Below, one piece after another: positions 44,560 to 54,178 of a DNA stretch of 54,178 nt (within the stretch, counting starts at the first letter, position 1; every line of letters starts with the position of its first letter). The notes beneath the pieces were generated by a model. It saw only the letters and a list, made by a program, of their open reading frames with translations, was not told where the DNA came from and searched no databases. Position numbers and translations under genes: made by a program. Source of the DNA: Ruminococcus sp. (GTDB lineage Bacteria; Bacillota; Clostridia; Oscillospirales; Ruminococcaceae). Location of the stretch: NCBI GenBank assembly GCA_015066925.1, contig SVNL01000003.1, forward strand, positions 6,408 to 60,585, given 5' to 3'.

Positions 44560-45402
44560 TTATGCTATCTTCTGATACACCTCATAACCTATTACCGTAA
44601 TTCCGAGAATAAGAGTGTATATAGAGAAAATTGTGAATTTATTTGATTTTACTATCCAGCTTACCATTTTTATTGCGCATATTCCTACTACTGCCGCAAC
44701 AATAAAGCCTACTATGTACGGCAATACACTGCCGAATTGTTCAGATTCCGAAATTGCGTCCTTAAGCTCAAGAAGACAGCCTGCGAGTATTGTAGGCATT
44801 CCGAGGATAAATGAATATTTTACTGCTGTATCACGAGTAAATCCGCTGAAAAGTCCGCCTGAGATTGTTGAACCTGAACGTGATACTCCCGGAAAGAGTG
44901 CTATTGCCTGAAATATTCCGACTGCAAGTGCGTTTTTCCATGTGATATCACCTGCGGTTTTAGTTCCCTTAACGCACTTGTCAGACAAAAACAGTATAAG
45001 TGACGTATACAGGAAAAGACATCCGAGAGCTATCATATATGTTGTTGAAACCATTTCAATTGTATCCTTCAGCGGTATACAAGGAACAAGTACAAGACAT
45101 GATATGATAAGCATTACTATCATACGTCTTTCGGGATTCATTTTTGTTTTAAAGAGCTTTCCTTTAAAAAGGTCTGCACACATTGAACCTGCTTCCTTGA
45201 TAAGAGCTATAACGTCCTTACGGAATGCGATAAAGGTTGCAAGAAGTGTTCCGAGGTGTAGGATTGCTGAAAAGAACAAGCCCGAACTCTCGGACTTTCC
45301 GAAATAATTCTGATAAAGAGCAAGATGCCCTGAGCTTGAAACAGGTAAAAACTCTGTTAAACCCTGTATAATTCCCTGTATAATTGCGTCAAAAATACTC
45401 AT
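44560..45402 (-). CDS. uppP: undecaprenyl-diphosphatase
   Basis: UppP (BacA) recycles the lipid carrier of cell-wall synthesis by removing a phosphate from undecaprenyl diphosphate; overproduction gives bacitracin resistance. The 280-residue membrane protein has the signatures QGLTEFLPVSSSGHL and PGVSRSGSTISGG, and about eight helices. GGAGG is upstream. It lies 20 bases after tepA and 71 bases before ftsK. Confidence 0.96.
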   Translation of the reverse strand: MSIFDAIIQGIIQGLTEFLPVSSSGHLALYQNYFGKSESSGLFFSAILHLGTLLATFIAFRKDVIALIKEAGSMCADLFKGKLFKTKMNPERRMIVMLIISCLVLVPCIPLKDTIEMVSTTYMIALGCLFLYTSLILFLSDKCVKGTKTAGDITWKNALAVGIFQAIALFPGVSRSGSTISGGLFSGFTRDTAVKYSFILGMPTILAGCLLELKDAISESEQFGSVLPYIVGFIVAAVVGICAIKMVSWIVKSNKFTIFSIYTLILGITVIGYEVYQKIA

Positions 45403-45422
45403 AAATACCTCCGCTATAATAA

Positions 45423-46169
45423 TCAGTCAGCATATCTTTTTTCACTTGTTTCAATAAGCTCATAAAGACTTTCAATTGCGTCACTTAATCCGCCCAGTCT
45501 GTCAATCAGACCTATTTCAACAGCTTTTTCACCTTCTACAACGCTTCCTACATCCATAACAAGCTCTTTTGTATTCATCATAAGACGGCGGAATGTCTTT
45601 TCATCCACCTTACTGTTATGCGTAACAAAATTTATAATTCTGTCCTGCATTTTATCGAAATATGAAAGCGTCTGAGGAACACCCAGAACAGTTCCGTTCA
45701 TTCTTACGGGGTGAATTGTCATTGAAGCTGAGGGAACTATAAATGAACGCTTGGCACACACTGCAAGCGGAACGCCGATTGAATGTCCGCCTCCAAGCAC
45801 AAGTGAAACTGTCGGGGTTTTCATACTTGCGACAAGCTCTGCTATTGCAAGACCTGCTTCAACATCTCCACCGACAGTATTTAAAATTATCACAAGCCCC
45901 TCTATACTTCTATCCTGTTCAATAGCGACAAGCGACGGAATAATATGCTCATACTTCGTTGTTTTATTCTGTGACGACAGAACATAGTGTCCTTCTATCT
46001 GTCCTATAATACTAAGGCAATGAATGAGGTGCTTTGAATTTCTTGAAACAATTTCGCCAGTTTTCTCGATAAGCTCTGCTTCATCGAGCTGTAAATCTAC
46101 TTCGTTTTCTTCCTGAGGCTCATGCTCATTAAAATCAATATTTTTTTCCTGATTATTATTAGTTATCAT
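45423..46169 (-). CDS. tepA: ClpP-like protease TepA (translocation-enhancing protein)
   Basis: A 248-residue cytosolic ClpP-fold protease. An acidic N-terminus (about 8-35) precedes the core; the nucleophile is Ser130 in GGGHSIG and the catalytic His is His153 in MTIHP. The start at 46169 has GGAGG eight bases upstream; a longer frame to 46205 lacks this. In Bacillus tepA is near spoIIIE, and here it opens the cluster that includes ftsK. A good promoter lies at 46255-46283. Confidence 0.9.
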
Positions 46170-46254
46170 AAATTTATCCTCCGCTTTAAGCATAAGGCGA
46201 TACACCTTATTATATTACTATTATGCTTTTCAAGCGAAAGGATATACATATATT

Positions 46255-46371: not shown

Positions 46372-46400
46372 TTGACAAATAGAAACAAATGTTCTATAAT
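46372..46400 (+). promoter_or_regulatory. consensus promoter of the small-protein/HTH/decarboxylase operon
   Basis: TTGACA (46372-46377), 17-base spacer, TATAAT (46395-46400). The spacer contains AAAC-4 bases-GTTC, an imperfect LexA-like box touching the -10. Confidence 0.85.
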
Positions 46401-46427
46401 ATATTTCAAGGAAAGAACGTTTGTTCT
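46383..46427. promoter_or_regulatory. LexA/DinR-like operator pair
   Basis: The perfect palindrome AGAAC-GTTT-GTTCT (46414-46427) matches the Gram-positive LexA form GAAC-N4-GTTC. A second, imperfect site AAAC-N4-GTTC lies at 46383-46394, overlapping the promoter spacer. Binding would block RNA polymerase, so the operon may be induced by DNA damage. This is inference from motif and position. Confidence 0.55.
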
Positions 46428-46541
46428 AAATTCGCTGCCAGATTTCTTTTTTTCCGGCATCCCCGTTCCGGCTTTTTCATCAACCTATTCACTTAAAAAG
46501 GCTTTAATTTCGCCTTTCAATTTAAAGGAGGAGTTTTTTCT

Positions 46542-46769
46542 ATGACTGACCTTATACCCATTTATCTTCTTAGCTGCAAAATGGCTGAAAAACATATCGC
46601 CTTACTTACGGCAAGGCTTAACCTTCTTAAAAAGAACGGAGGTGAAGCTTCACCTGAATTCGCTGAGCTGAAAAGACGTATACATCTTTTATACATTGAA
46701 CGTGCTGATATGATGATTATTATTAATACTCTCTCTTCTTATCCCGACAGGAGAAATGCTGATGAATAA
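46542..46769 (+). CDS. small helical protein, first gene of the putative SOS operon
   Basis: A 75-residue protein I do not recognise. It is predicted mostly helical, with an amphipathic N-terminal half (LLSCKMAEKHIALLTARLNLLKK) and a second helix rich in Ile, Met and Arg. The strong AGGAGGAG SD is clear. Its coding end overlaps the HTH gene by eight bases, so the two are translationally coupled and may act together, for instance as a partner of the sigma-like protein. Confidence 0.7.
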   Translation: MTDLIPIYLLSCKMAEKHIALLTARLNLLKKNGGEASPEFAELKRRIHLLYIERADMMIIINTLSSYPDRRNADE

Positions 46770-47052
46770 TCGTATTGCACGTGATTTCTTTCAAGGCGAT
46801 TTCGACGAGGAGTTTCGCAGAATTCTTGAAAAGGACATTGCAAGCCCACAATCAAAAATAAAAAAAATTATGCTAAAAGCTATAAAAAATGAACTAACTG
46901 CAAGACAAAGTGAAATTATTATGTTATACTATTTTAAGGGGATGAATATTTCTGAGATTTCCGAAAAGCTCGGGATTACTCATTCAGCTGTTTCTATAAC
47001 CATGAGAAGAGCCAGAAACAGACTCTTTAGAATATTAAAATACACATTATAA
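46762..47052 (+). CDS. sigma-70 region 4-like HTH protein
   Basis: A 96-residue protein whose C-terminal half matches sigma region 4: LTARQSEIIMLYYFKGMNISEI, then the helix-turn-helix LGITHSAVSITMRRARNRL (about 62-88). There is no region 2, so it is not a complete sigma factor; it may bind -35-like DNA or act with RNA polymerase. I start it at ATG 46762, eight bases after AGGAG; an ATG at 46756 is too close to the SD. The N-terminal 40 residues are acidic then basic and unassigned. Confidence 0.8.
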   Translation: MNNRIARDFFQGDFDEEFRRILEKDIASPQSKIKKIMLKAIKNELTARQSEIIMLYYFKGMNISEISEKLGITHSAVSITMRRARNRLFRILKYTL

Positions 47053-47066
47053 TCAGAGGAGTTTTT

Positions 47067-48398
47067 ATGAATACACCTGTTTTCGATTTTCTTTCAGATT
47101 ACCGTAAAAGCAATACCGCCCGTATGCATATGCCCGGACATAAAGGACGTGCTCCCATATCTGAGCTTGAACACATCTACTCATTTGATATTACCGAAAT
47201 AAAAAATGCCGATAGCCTTTTTGAAGCCGATAGTATTATTGCTGAAAGTGAAAAAAATGCTTCTTCACTTTTCGGTTCTGCCGCAACTGTGTATTCAGCC
47301 TCCGGCTCAACTCTTTGTATTCAGGCTATGCTTGCACTTATGAAACAGGAGAACCGAACTGTTATTGCTGCACGCAATGTCCACAGAGCCTTTATCAATG
47401 CTGTCGCTTTACTTGATATTGACGTTAAATGGATTTATCCCGAATACTGCGGTGGTATACTGACGGGTGAAATTATTCTTTCTGATATAGAAAAAGCTCT
47501 TTCAAGCATTAAGACTCCCGCCTGCGTTTATCTGACCTCTCCTGATTATACAGGAAAAACTGCTGATATTTCTTCTGTTTCGGCTCTTTGCAAAAAATAT
47601 GACGCTCGATTGCTTGTTGATAATGCTCATGGTGCTCATCTTGCTTTTATGCCTGATTATAATATACATCCTATTTCTCTGGGTGCTGACCTATGCTGTG
47701 ATTCGGCACATAAAATGCTTCCTGCACTTACGGGTGCCGCTTATCTGCACACCTCTTGCAGTGAATACGCCTGCAAGCTTAAACAGGCTATGACGCTTTT
47801 TGCTTCAACAAGTCCCTCTTATCTCGTTCTTATGTCGCTTGACCTTTGCAATAGATATATTTCCGATAAAATTACGTCTGACCTTAATAATGTGATTTCT
47901 CAAATAAACAATATACGTCAGAAATTCAGCGGTAAAATTCCATTTACTGACTCTGAACCGCTTCATCTTACAATCAAAGCCTTTGAAGCAGGCTTCTGCG
48001 GTAACGATTTTGCTGAGCTTCTTCGCAAATACGGTGTTGAATGTGAATACTCCGACCGCCAATTTGTAGTTTTACTCTTTTCACCTTATGAGCCTGCTGA
48101 AAATTTCAAGAAATTATCTTTAGCATTGGAAAATTCACTTAACGAGGTTCCTGCGTTTACTCACAAAAATGCTGATTTTCATTTACCTGTTCTCGAACAG
48201 ATAATGTCAGTTCGTGAAGCTGTTTTTTCAACAAGCGAGCTTATTGATGTTGAAAACTCCGAGAACAAAATCAGTGCAAGCGTTAATGTTCCATGTCCTC
48301 CTGCAATTCCTATCGCTGTCAGCGGTGAACGTATTAATCGTGAGTGTGTTGAAATATTCAAGGAATATGGCATTAATAAAATAAATGTAGTTAAATAA
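47067..48398 (+). CDS. Orn/Lys/Arg decarboxylase family PLP enzyme
   Basis: A 443-residue fold-type I PLP enzyme. MPGHKGR near the start and the PLP lysine Lys216 in DSAHKMLPALTGAAYLH are diagnostic of the short Firmicutes Orn/Lys/Arg decarboxylases (YaaO/SpeA-like); NVPCPPAIPI near the C-terminus is also typical. The exact substrate (arginine, lysine or ornithine) cannot be told. It lies 14 bases after the HTH gene with GAGGAG as SD, so it probably shares the LexA-box promoter. A terminator follows. Confidence 0.92.
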   Translation: MNTPVFDFLSDYRKSNTARMHMPGHKGRAPISELEHIYSFDITEIKNADSLFEADSIIAESEKNASSLFGSAATVYSASGSTLCIQAMLALMKQENRTVIAARNVHRAFINAVALLDIDVKWIYPEYCGGILTGEIILSDIEKALSSIKTPACVYLTSPDYTGKTADISSVSALCKKYDARLLVDNAHGAHLAFMPDYNIHPISLGADLCCDSAHKMLPALTGAAYLHTSCSEYACKLKQAMTLFASTSPSYLVLMSLDLCNRYISDKITSDLNNVISQINNIRQKFSGKIPFTDSEPLHLTIKAFEAGFCGNDFAELLRKYGVECEYSDRQFVVLLFSPYEPAENFKKLSLALENSLNEVPAFTHKNADFHLPVLEQIMSVREAVFSTSELIDVENSENKISASVNVPCPPAIPIAVSGERINRECVEIFKEYGINKINVVK

Positions 48399-48406
48399 TC
48401 TCTTTT

Positions 48407-48441
48407 CAGGTGATATTGCTTTGGTATCACCTGTATTTTTT
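48407..48441 (+). terminator. terminator of the decarboxylase operon
   Basis: A 9-bp perfect stem CAGGTGATA (48407-48415) / TATCACCTG (48425-48433), 9-base loop and a T run. It separates the decarboxylase from the germination operon. Confidence 0.9.
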
Positions 48442-48479
48442 TGAAAATTGCGTCAATAATATGCACAGAGGTGATTTTT

Positions 48480-49940
48480 ATGAAAAACAATGATTATTAT
48501 TATACTCCTCTTAATCCAAGTCTTTCAGAAAATATTAAAAATATCAAGGAAATTTCAGGCGGCTCTTCCGATGTACTTGTAAATGAATTCGAGGCGGGCG
48601 GTGTGAAGTGTGCATTGCTATGCTGTGAGGGTATGGTCGCTATGGGAATTATAAGCGAGCTTGTCTTTCGTCCCATTACTCATATCACTCTTGAAAATAA
48701 AAACTCTAAGGCTCTTTTTGAGCATATAAATAATAAGCTTCTGCTTTCCGCTGACCGTATCAAAGTAATTAACTACGGAAATCTTTTCAGAACTCTTAAC
48801 TCGGGTTTTGCCGTACTTATTGCTGAGGGAGCTGATACAGCTCTTGCTTTCGGTGTTCAGGGATATGCTATGCGAAGCGTTAACGAGCCTTCGGGTGAAG
48901 CTAACATTATGGGCTCTCACGACGGTTTTGTTGAGGTTATACGTGCCAATATGTCACTCATAAGACGCAGGTTAAAAAGTCCGTCGCTTGTTCTCGAGCT
49001 TTCTGTTATCGGAAGCAAAACCCAGACAGATATATGCCTTTGCTATATGCAGGATAGAGTTCCTAAGTCGCTTCTTGACAAAATTAAAAAATCTCTCGAT
49101 AAAATCGACCTTGAGTCCGTACTCTCAACAGGTTATATACGTCCGTTTCTTGAAAGCAGACGTCTTGAAATATTTAATTCAACAGGTACTACCGAGCGTC
49201 CCGATGTTTTATGCTCAAAGCTGATTGAGGGACGTGTTGCTATTCTTATTGACGGTATTCCTTTTGCTATCGTTATACCAAAGCTGTTCTGCGAAAGCTT
49301 TCAGACTCTCGATGACTACGCTTTCAAGCCTTATTATGCATTTTTTATCCGCTGGATTAAATATTTCGCTTTTCTTATAGCAATTTTACTCCCTTCACTT
49401 TATGTTGCGATTTCTTTGCACCACCCTGAACTACTCAACTCCTCCTTGCTGATGATTCTTGCAGAGGCTGAGGAAAAAGCTCCTGTTTCGCTTCTTGTAG
49501 AGGCTATGGGTGTTCTGCTTCTTTATGAGATAATACGTGAGGCAGGTCTTAGACTTCCAAAGGTTGTAGGTGGAGCTGTAAGCATTGTTGGTGGTCTTAT
49601 TATCGGTGACTCTGCCGTCCAGTCAGGTCTGGTAAGCACTCCTATGCTGACTATTATTGCTCTTGCTGTTACAAGCGGATTTGTAGTACCCGAAATTAAC
49701 CAGAGTATAACTATTCTCCGCTTTGTTTTTCTTATTGCAGGAGGCTGGCTAGGACTTTTCGGTATAAGTCTTGTTGCCTGCGTTGTGCTTGTGAATATAT
49801 GTGCTACCGAGGATTACGGTTTTCCGTTTACTGCACCGATTTCTCCTTTTAAACCTAAGGCTATGAGGGATACTCTCGGTAGAATAGGCTTTAGAAAAAT
49901 GCAAAAGGGTAATTTTACCGTGGAGGAATATTATGAATAA
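48480..49940 (+). CDS. gerAA: GerA family spore germination receptor, A subunit
   Basis: The A subunit of a nutrient germinant receptor in the spore inner membrane. The 486-residue protein has a cytosolic N-terminal domain (about 1-275), with the DRVPKSLLDKIKKSLDKID and EGRVAILIDGIPFAIVIP segments conserved in the family, and five or six C-terminal membrane helices with the PEINQSITILRF motif. The start at 48480 has AGAGGTGA upstream; a longer frame to 48441 lacks an SD. It overlaps the B gene by eight bases. No sigma-G-like promoter could be identified. Confidence 0.93.
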   Translation: MKNNDYYYTPLNPSLSENIKNIKEISGGSSDVLVNEFEAGGVKCALLCCEGMVAMGIISELVFRPITHITLENKNSKALFEHINNKLLLSADRIKVINYGNLFRTLNSGFAVLIAEGADTALAFGVQGYAMRSVNEPSGEANIMGSHDGFVEVIRANMSLIRRRLKSPSLVLELSVIGSKTQTDICLCYMQDRVPKSLLDKIKKSLDKIDLESVLSTGYIRPFLESRRLEIFNSTGTTERPDVLCSKLIEGRVAILIDGIPFAIVIPKLFCESFQTLDDYAFKPYYAFFIRWIKYFAFLIAILLPSLYVAISLHHPELLNSSLLMILAEAEEKAPVSLLVEAMGVLLLYEIIREAGLRLPKVVGGAVSIVGGLIIGDSAVQSGLVSTPMLTIIALAVTSGFVVPEINQSITILRFVFLIAGGWLGLFGISLVACVVLVNICATEDYGFPFTAPISPFKPKAMRDTLGRIGFRKMQKGNFTVEEYYE

Positions 49941-50913
49941 AATCTCTGTTGCACAGCTTTCAGCCTTGCTTCTTTCGTGTGATGTCTTTGTTCTTGTATG
50001 TCTGACATCTTCAATTACACTTACAACTCTACTCGGCTTTTCAATCGGTACGGCAATTCAGCTTATCATTGCTGTTCCTGCACTTTTTTGCCTTTCAAGA
50101 GGTGAGAAAATTTCGTTCTCAATTGCAAATCGCTGGATATTCCTCATCTATTCAATTATATGGGGCGGACTTATTTTTATTCGAATATGGCAGACTTCTG
50201 AGGTCATTTATATTCCGCCTAATAATATTTTTTCGGAAAAACTGGTCATTACTGCCCTCGTAGGTCTTGTCTGTCTTTATATATCCTCAACAGGTCTTAA
50301 ACCTCTTGCAAGAAGTGCAGTTATTGTCGGCGGATTTGGAGTAATCTGCCTTGTCGTGATAATTCTTGGTGCTCTGAGCAAGGCTGAAATATCACATATC
50401 ACACCAAAAAACGCCTCGCTTGAAAATGAAATTTTCACAGGCCTTGCAATGAGTGGAAATATAGGCACTTTTATACTTCTTGCTGAAAATATAAATTATA
50501 AGAAAATTAAAACTACTGCGCTGTATTTCCTTTTCAGAGCACTTCTTATCGCTCTTATCGGGTTTATTTCCATTCTCGTTGCGGGAAAAATTAACACACG
50601 CTTTCCTGTAATTATGGCAGTACAGCTCTCACAGCCGATTAAATCACAGCGAATTGACTCTGTATTCATTCTCATTTTTGTTGTACTGGCAATAATTTCT
50701 CTTGCACTACAGGCAATTGTTTCTGCTGAGCTTCTGAAAAAAATCTTTCCTAAATTTCTGCGATACCGTACTACTGTATCACTTTTGCTTATGACACTTG
50801 CCGGACTTTGCCTCTCAGACACAAATCTTTATTCTTCATTCTACGCAATCACTTTTATTATTGCTTTTGTTGTTTCGTCACTTATTACGCTAGTCGGACA
50901 GAAAGGAGATTAA
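49933..50913 (+). CDS. gerAB: GerA family spore germination receptor, B subunit (permease)
   Basis: A 326-residue membrane protein of the APC-type endospore germination permease family, with about ten hydrophobic helices starting AQLSALLLSCDVFVLV. The B subunit is thought to bind the germinant amino acid. Bacillus members are around 365 residues, so this one is slightly short. SD GGAGG; translationally coupled to gerAA. Confidence 0.88.
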   Translation: MNKISVAQLSALLLSCDVFVLVCLTSSITLTTLLGFSIGTAIQLIIAVPALFCLSRGEKISFSIANRWIFLIYSIIWGGLIFIRIWQTSEVIYIPPNNIFSEKLVITALVGLVCLYISSTGLKPLARSAVIVGGFGVICLVVIILGALSKAEISHITPKNASLENEIFTGLAMSGNIGTFILLAENINYKKIKTTALYFLFRALLIALIGFISILVAGKINTRFPVIMAVQLSQPIKSQRIDSVFILIFVVLAIISLALQAIVSAELLKKIFPKFLRYRTTVSLLLMTLAGLCLSDTNLYSSFYAITFIIAFVVSSLITLVGQKGD

Positions 50914-52716: not shown

Positions 52717-54178
52717 TTAAGTTTCTGCCTTCTTAACTACATCAGCCCAAGTTACATCTTTACTTGTTGATGAACGTGCATAGTATGCAAGTATCCATGA
52801 GGCGTCTGAAGCATTGATATCATTTCTTCTATCACTTTCTGTCTTCTTCCAGTTGTCAACTGAATATTCATCTTCGCTAACATCACCAAGGAAGCATACT
52901 AAGTTTTCAATAAACTGATCACCATTTTTACCAGGAAGCATTTCAATGTTTGCATCAGATGTATTTACTGATGCGCGAGCATAATATGATAATACTCTTG
53001 AAGCGTCTAACGCGTCAACATTATTATCAAGTGTAACGTCACCCTTAACACCGATGTATGCATCTACTGTGAAAGGAATAACATTTTCATCTGAAAGCTC
53101 AATCATATCTTCGCCACTGCCTACATAAACGTTAACAGCGTACTTGTTGCCCTTTGCAGGATCAAATACTGACTTAGGTGTCTGTGTACCAAAACTATAA
53201 TCGATTACACCGCCGAGCTTAGCAATCATATCTGCTTCGTCAAGGAGGTTAACGCCTGGGATTTCTTGTCCGTTCTTTGCTACAGCTGTAACAACGAGCT
53301 TTTTAATCTGAGCCTTGTTGAATGAATTTGTATCGTGTGAGAAGTAATAACCTTCTGTTGCTTCAAATCCGTCAACACCATTCTGTGTGTTTATGTAACA
53401 ATCATTGAAGTCAAATACCTGTGGAGTTGTAACGATTGGTCCTGTTGTACCAGGTTCTACTGTTGTAGTAATAACATCGCCTGTTGTTGTGCCAGGTTCT
53501 GCTGTTGTTGTAACAATTTCTTCTGTTGTTGTACCAGATTCTGCTGTTGTTGTACCAGGTTCTGCTGTTGTAGTAACAATATCGCCTGTTGTTGTGCCAG
53601 GTTCTGCTGTTGTTGCAACTACATCTGGAGTTGTTGTACCAGGTTCTGCTGTTGTTGCAACTACATCTGGAGTTGTTGTACCAGGTTCTGCTGTTGTTGC
53701 AACTACATCTGGAGTTGTTGTACCAGGTTCTGCTGTTGTTGTAACAACTTCCTCTGTTGTTGTACCAGGTTCTGCTGTTGTTGTAACAACTTCCTCTGTT
53801 GTTGTACCAGGTTCCGCTGTTGTTGTAACAACTTCTTCTGTTGTTGTACCAGGTTCTGCTGTTGTTGTAACAACTTCTTCTGTTGTTGTAGTTGCCGGAG
53901 TTGTTGTTGTTGTTACATCATTTGCTGTAAATTCTCTTGTGATGCTATTAATCGTAAACTCGCCATCACCCTTATACATTGCTTCAATATCAATGGTAGC
54001 TTTAATCTTCTTTACAGATGAAGTGATTGCAAGAGTGTTTTTATATTCATTAACGAGTTCATCATACTGATCATCTTCAAATGTTGCTGTAAATGTAGCT
54101 TTACCTGATTCATATGAAACAACAACGTTGCTAAGACCTTCTGCAAATTCACATGCATCAGCAAGTGTAACTGCTACT
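52717..54178 (-). CDS. cttA: X-dockerin cellulosome protein (CttA-like), C-terminal part
   Basis: The gene enters from the right edge; 486 residues are visible and the frame is open to the end of the window. The order is a beta-rich domain end (about 1-80), a long Thr/Glu/Pro/Val repeat linker, an X module (about 255-345) and a dockerin with two calcium loops, GDVTLDNNVDALDAS and RNDINASDASW, separated by an unusual insert. This is the R. flavefaciens X-dockerin type that binds ScaE. Its place directly before scaE favours CttA, the cellulose-binding adhesin; ScaB shares the same C-terminus and cannot be excluded without the N-terminal part. Confidence 0.75.
   Translation of the reverse strand, partial: VAVTLADACEFAEGLSNVVVSYESGKATFTATFEDDQYDELVNEYKNTLAITSSVKKIKATIDIEAMYKGDGEFTINSITREFTANDVTTTTTPATTTTEEVVTTTAEPGTTTEEVVTTTAEPGTTTEEVVTTTAEPGTTTEEVVTTTAEPGTTTPDVVATTAEPGTTTPDVVATTAEPGTTTPDVVATTAEPGTTTGDIVTTTAEPGTTTAESGTTTEEIVTTTAEPGTTTGDVITTTVEPGTTGPIVTTPQVFDFNDCYINTQNGVDGFEATEGYYFSHDTNSFNKAQIKKLVVTAVAKNGQEIPGVNLLDEADMIAKLGGVIDYSFGTQTPKSVFDPAKGNKYAVNVYVGSGEDMIELSDENVIPFTVDAYIGVKGDVTLDNNVDALDASRVLSYYARASVNTSDANIEMLPGKNGDQFIENLVCFLGDVSEDEYSVDNWKKTESDRRNDINASDASWILAYYARSSTSKDVTWADVVKKAET
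53449..53889. repeat. 42-bp tandem repeats coding the Thr-rich linker
   Basis: Ten 14-residue units of type TTTxxxVxTTAEPG (for example TTTEEVVTTTAEPG, TTTPDVVATTAEPG) plus one half unit. Neighbouring units are almost identical at the DNA level, so copy number may vary between strains. Confidence 0.9.

Follow-up and report, generated by a model that had tools for sequence, protein, structure and literature searches.

A small gene pair under an apparent SOS-repressor operator is probably a DNA-damage switch in Ruminococcus

Introduction

The SOS response is usually pictured as LexA acting directly on repair genes. Xpf of PBSX and UviA of Clostridium perfringens are sigma-like regulators linked to DNA damage, and an isolated sigma region 4 can bind −35-type DNA and the β-flap but cannot melt a promoter.

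Several described systems come close to the locus analysed here. The GAACN4GTTC core matches the B. subtilis box, and it recurs in LexA operators of C. difficile that have been assayed by surface plasmon resonance (both PMC4234289). In SigO-RsoA of Bacillus subtilis, region 4 is separate from region 2 and lies beside a small partner (PMC8103513). The motif ExxxSxxRxxxQxxxD of RsiG, the partner of the sigma factor WhiG, is taken from PMC7288161. For pairs of an XRE protein and a peptidase, responses to DNA damage or to related stress are described in Deinococcus and in mobile elements (PMC10233336 and PMC8072749). We found no literature on the DNA-damage response of the rumen and gut bacteria considered below.

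Here we analyse a 54-kb stretch of Ruminococcus DNA (54,178 nt; hereafter the window) in which a gene pair, encoding a predicted helical hairpin and a stand-alone sigma region 4, stands under an apparent SOS-repressor operator. Since the operator and the gene arrangement are kept in many relatives, we propose that the pair is probably a DNA-damage switch.

Results

Architecture of the window locus

The features of the locus, in window coordinates, are these.

46372–46400, + strand: sigma-A promoter, TTGACA-17-TATAAT, matching the consensus at 12 of 12 positions
46383–46394, no strand: LexA-like box 1, AAACAAATGTTC, one mismatch, in the −35/−10 spacer and abutting the −10 element
46415–46426, no strand: LexA-like box 2, GAACGTTTGTTC, no mismatches, 14 bases past the −10 element and 32 bp after box 1
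46542–46769, + strand: ORF of a 75-residue protein with a predicted two-helix hairpin fold
46756–47052, + strand: ORF of a 98-residue stand-alone sigma region 4 protein (Pfam Sigma70_r4; predicted fold)
47067–48398, + strand: third operon gene, for an Orn/Lys/Arg decarboxylase-fold PLP enzyme (Pfam OKR_DC_1, 3.6e-35)
48407–48433, + strand: intrinsic-terminator-like hairpin, a 12-bp stem followed by a T run, the apparent operon end in the window's own genome (1.81 Mb, 79% complete)

An earlier note on this DNA had described a perfect promoter overlapping an imperfect LexA-like box, with a perfect GAAC-N4-GTTC palindrome 14 bases downstream, and both observations stand: one GAACN4GTTC element with a single mismatch overlaps the promoter and a perfect one lies just beyond it, as in a LexA operator. 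Box 2 is the sole perfect GAACN4GTTC in the window; versions with one mismatch occur there at chance level (21 found versus 17.9 expected), so that the window alone proves little and the evidence for the boxes is comparative.

The two small ORFs overlap by 14 nt, as had been noted; the length of 96 residues then given for the second protein applies only from its second ATG (98 from the first), and the operon has a third gene, whose decarboxylase-fold product has 443 residues. A GerA-type germination gene (Pfam) lies downstream of this gene and of the terminator-like hairpin (one found versus 0.3 expected). Both small ORFs show dN below dS in all six pairs compared, and by this measure they behave as genes under purifying selection. 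The five Pfam-scanned neighbours (44560–46172 and 47067–50910) are non-phage, in keeping with the earlier view that phage genes are absent nearby. On the minus strand, 52717–53979 encodes a protein with what we take, by eye, to be Thr/Pro-rich tandem repeats and a dockerin-like end.

A predicted helical hairpin and a stand-alone sigma region 4

The 75-residue protein had been called helical and unrecognised, and both descriptions fit: it is predicted to form a two-helix hairpin (AlphaFold2 mean pLDDT 90.5; helices 2–31 and 38–66) and finds no family at E 0.01 in Pfam or PHROGs, the best Pfam match, FCD, being sub-threshold at E 0.075. Among 45 hairpin members run against the same two collections, no family is common to more than one. 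An ORF matching the window hairpin is present at 65 of 80 loci, these being the best 80 of the 115 relatives that a scan of named genomes gave for the region-4 protein; most of the 80, and the closest of the named relatives, are Ruminococcus, and the locus is present in Ruminococcus flavefaciens FD-1 and 007c. The RsiG motif, sought in each helix, occurs in 0 of 69 hairpin ORFs, a set that includes a few doubtful ones, with a best score of 4 of 5 positions in two of the 69. By analogy with RsiG, the hairpin could be an inhibitor or an assembly partner of the region-4 protein.

The 98-residue protein matches Pfam Sigma70_r4 at 46 bits (cut-off 24.1) and has no region-2 match in Pfam, which bears out the claim that it carries sigma region 4 only; a region-4 fold is also seen in its structure prediction. 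Of the solved structures, WhiG region 4 matches the family best in sequence, and no PDB entry reaches E 0.001 in Foldseek (best 0.0098). Sigma70_r4 matches all 65 region-4 members scanned, and we replace the earlier reading as a truncated sigma factor with that of a conserved stand-alone region-4 family. A complete sigma-70 factor is ruled out by the length of 98 residues, the match to region 4 alone and the missing region 2. Since region 4 alone cannot melt a promoter, we infer that the protein most likely works together with the resident sigma factor, as an activator, a repressor or a co-factor.

Two other assignments of this protein have to be weighed. It exceeds the gathering score of Pfam UPF0122 (29.6 versus 22.7 bits), a model matched by 61 of the 65 members, which would suit a YlxM/p13-type helix-turn-helix protein with no role in transcription initiation; however, Sigma70_r4 scores higher and in every member, and the NCBIfam YlxM equivalog model gives 29.9 bits where its cut-off is 80, leaving this assignment very improbable. 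The protein might instead be a domesticated phage late-gene activator or Q-like antiterminator, SOS-responsive and kept for prophage or mobile-element control. A prophage-like region of G019 (L059/L026/L346) does hold a 40% identical copy beside genes that look, by eye, holin-like and lysozyme-like, 12 of the 65 members give weak Phage_antitermQ matches, and XRE/ImmA-type pairs, found at some relatives, are common in mobile elements (PMC10233336 and PMC8072749). Yet the window protein scores only 19.3 bits with Phage_antitermQ, far under its 46 bits with Sigma70_r4, its gene has chromosomal neighbours, and scans return one relative in IMG/VR and four partial matches in phage records; we consider a phage-derived role quite unlikely.

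Conservation of the box upstream of the region-4 gene

In 60 of 77 relatives the 520 bp upstream contain an exact box (three of the 80 loci, with less than 350 bp upstream, are excluded), whereas 200 trials of a Markov null averaged 0.44 and never gave more than 3; the 77 are mostly of one genus and thus not independent. The earlier note had named conservation of GAAC-N4-GTTC upstream of orthologous genes as an observation on which its proposal would stand or fall, and the box is conserved there. Over the 80 loci, 85 exact boxes lie in 43 kb upstream of the region-4 gene versus 5 in 570 kb elsewhere, a 223-fold difference in density. With the window included, promoter and box overlap in 60 of 78 regions. 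Allowing up to one mismatch, 67 regions contain at least one box, 61 at least two and 11 none. Spacing between adjacent boxes is 34–35 bp in 40 of 73 pairs (window included), and the position of box 1 holds an exact box in many relatives. Across 61 aligned promoters the segment from −35 to −10 is conserved and the leader beyond it is not, so the conservation of the box exceeds what mere relatedness would give, although these loci do not count as independent.

A subgroup of five loci (L129, L150, L152, L158 and L173) keeps a TTGAC...TACAAT promoter, with the palindrome replaced by GTTGA or GCTGA, A/T-rich sequence and usually TTC; this is perhaps a changed operator. Two contigs titled Alistipes (L132 and L167) show the Ruminococcus-type gene order and are probably misnamed or misbinned.

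Genome-wide, two patterns differ in how closely they track the gene. The pattern GAACAWWTGTTC is matched in 8 of 17 family genomes, with exactly one site, at the region-4 gene, in five (G206, G126, G173, G256 and G172), three sites in G005, six in G193 and two in G145, neither of these two at the region-4 gene. It is not enriched across 80 congeneric genomes (60 sites versus 169 for the reversed control), where 23 of its 58 loci are at the region-4 gene and 35 elsewhere. The composite GAACN4GTTY-TATAAT is far more specific to the region-4 gene: it occurs at 44 places, spread over 41 of 100 congeneric genomes, against 5 in all for the reversed pattern, and 38 of the 44 lie at the region-4 gene, 262–387 bp before the region-4 match. 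The exact composite is absent from the other 59 genomes, the window's own included. Four of the remaining six places resemble chance. The other two (L194 and L223), both at contig ends in G324, carry nearly identical LexA-box promoters and suggest a repeated, perhaps mobile, SOS-controlled element.

Gene order downstream of the pair

By motif, the gene after the pair encodes a decarboxylase-fold protein in 68 of the 80 loci (the best 80 of 115 relatives), UvrC in 10 and neither in 2; the downstream genes of relatives were in many cases identified by eye. The presence of uvrC directly next to the pair in these 10 loci, and of genes further downstream in several relatives that we take, from sequence only, to encode DarA, HolB, RicT and QueH, would fit a LexA promoter that serves downstream repair and replication genes such as uvrC and holB, with the small proteins as minor leader products or autoregulators. 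Against this, the window operon seems to stop after the decarboxylase-fold gene, both small proteins are under purifying selection, and in five genomes where the gene order is lost (G172, G156, G459, G606 and G646) the exact box stays before the region-4 gene with other genes downstream; an account built on the downstream genes is in our judgement unlikely. The box kept where gene order is lost suggests instead that the hairpin/region-4 pair is the constant target of the operator.

LexA and other SOS genes

The window's own genome encodes a LexA (TIGR00498, 176.8 bits; cut-off 110.95), and 15 of 17 genomes searched have a LexA over the cut-off. Classical targets are less regular. Within 350 bp of the 15 best over-cut-off lexA genes, an exact box is found in 0 of 15 and a one-mismatch site in 2; in the window's own genome recA follows another gene and has no box before it. 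With exact boxes absent from lexA and from the genome's own recA, the network does not follow the classical autoregulated SOS plan.

Some repair genes do carry versions of the box. Exact boxes precede Y-family polymerases in four genomes (L092, L222, L225 and L233); among ten Y-family loci, two of them from one genome, a box with at most one mismatch lies within 400 bp in six and is missing from four, and the own Y-family gene has tandem one-mismatch boxes 31 bp apart. In one genome (L232) an exact box adjoins what is presumably ruvC. At uvrB, a one-mismatch box occurs in 14 of 28 genomes (about 3.6 expected; two partial matches, L318 and L319, left out), 11 of the 14 at −74 to −95; an exact box occurs in 0 of 28, and the own uvrB has no box in the just 175 bp of upstream sequence at hand.

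These observations bear on whether another repressor, a CI/HdiR-like S24 or an XRE protein, binds the palindromes in place of LexA. Such a repressor would account for the lack of an exact box at lexA itself and for G193, where six GAACAWWTGTTC sites coexist with LexA-like proteins that all fall below the cut-off, and an XRE repressor adjoins the region-4 gene in other genomes. However, the palindrome associated with XRE is a different one, ACACN5GTGT, and both types occur separately in G172; GAACN4GTTC is the published Firmicutes/Clostridium LexA box (PMC4234289), versions of it stand at some uvrB and Y-family polymerase genes, and over-cut-off LexA is present in 15 of the 17 genomes. We judge a non-LexA repressor improbable; LexA is the best candidate for the box-binding protein, in what appears to be an unusual network.

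A second operator type and spread beyond the genus

In a family-wide sample, region-4 relatives occur in 18 of 297 genomes at E values up to 1e-12. Of 17 chromosomal family loci with full upstream sequence (truncated L013 and prophage-like L026 omitted), 15 carry a box that departs from the pattern at one position at most, and in 10 of them it is exact; the remaining two are G145, of the XRE type, and G016, with neither operator. An order-wide sample gives region-4 relatives in 26 of 295 genomes. Among 24 further order-level loci, 11 have a LexA-like box (5 exact), 4 an ACACN5GTGT palindrome and 9 neither; by our estimate, about 5 loci with a box of up to one mismatch and 0.2 with an exact box are expected by chance. 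All nine with neither operator belong to one family. In five loci of one Oscillospirales family with neither operator (L325, L327, L328, L330 and L334), the region-4 gene lies just before an rpoN-like (sigma-54) gene.

The four box-less order-level loci and G145 bear ACACN5GTGT in place of the LexA-like box, and the palindromes stand in or near the promoter of the region-4 gene. Six ACACN5GTGT loci (G172, G184, G579, G597, G060 and G145) have a divergent XRE repressor, and G172, G184, G579 and G060 also have an IrrE/ImmA-type peptidase. Pfam supports the XRE assignment in four loci and the peptidase in three; the others, namely the XRE proteins of G145 and G184 and the peptidase of G172, were recognised by motif or eye. 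In locus terms, XRE and peptidase genes lie beside the region-4 gene at L058, L355, L356 and L360, and XRE only at L351 and L053. G172 holds both operators, the XRE type in the promoter spacer and a LexA-like box downstream, and its region-4 gene, outside the housekeeping operon, retains the exact box. No XRE or M78 peptidase gene lies within 1.5 kb of the window gene (L001).

Discussion

We consider it likely that the window locus is a LexA-repressed operon whose products include a region-4 transcription factor and its hairpin partner. As long as the DNA is undamaged, LexA dimers would occupy the two boxes, one in the −35/−10 spacer and one just past the start site. DNA damage would lead to RecA-stimulated self-cleavage of LexA and free a near-perfect, presumably very strong promoter, and the operon would then yield the hairpin, the region-4 protein by translational coupling, and the downstream enzyme. 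The region-4 protein would most likely bind −35-like DNA and/or the β-flap of RNA polymerase and so redirect transcription, and the hairpin would be either its partner or its inhibitor. In other lineages the promoter would be blocked by an XRE repressor instead of LexA.

A broader proposal, which we put forward tentatively, is that the pair is an Oscillospirales-wide effector of transcription reprogramming after DNA damage, over which LexA or an XRE repressor with an IrrE/ImmA-type peptidase has been placed independently, and which in Ruminococcus would be the chief LexA output, giving a two-tier SOS response. If this is right, a further layer of genes under damage control is to be expected, and the exchange of LexA for XRE/IrrE-type control at one gene offers a natural experiment on which genes such a response has to control.

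Compared with the Firmicutes LexA regulon, the locus shares a GAACN4GTTC element overlapping a promoter, a LexA in the genome and related boxes at some Y-family polymerase and uvrB genes; unlike it, the best-conserved operator found here sits over the operon of a transcription regulator, not over a repair gene, and lexA and the own recA are without exact boxes. As in SigO-RsoA, a region 4 separate from region 2 is found beside a small partner, but the partner here is a two-helix hairpin without a region-2 match; a split sigma factor of that type, having a separate region-2 partner, was considered and rejected. The helices of the hairpin resemble the coiled-coil helices by which RsiG partners a sigma factor, whereas the c-di-GMP motif of RsiG is missing from 69 of 69 hairpin ORFs and the hairpin/region-4 pairing is a proposed one. 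The DdrO/IrrE and ImmR/ImmA pairs have counterparts in the XRE and M78-type peptidase genes beside the region-4 gene of four relatives, but at the window locus a LexA-like box stands in place of such a pair. Finally, Xpf and UviA are phage- or plasmid-borne, whereas the window regulator is chromosomal and lies in a housekeeping setting.
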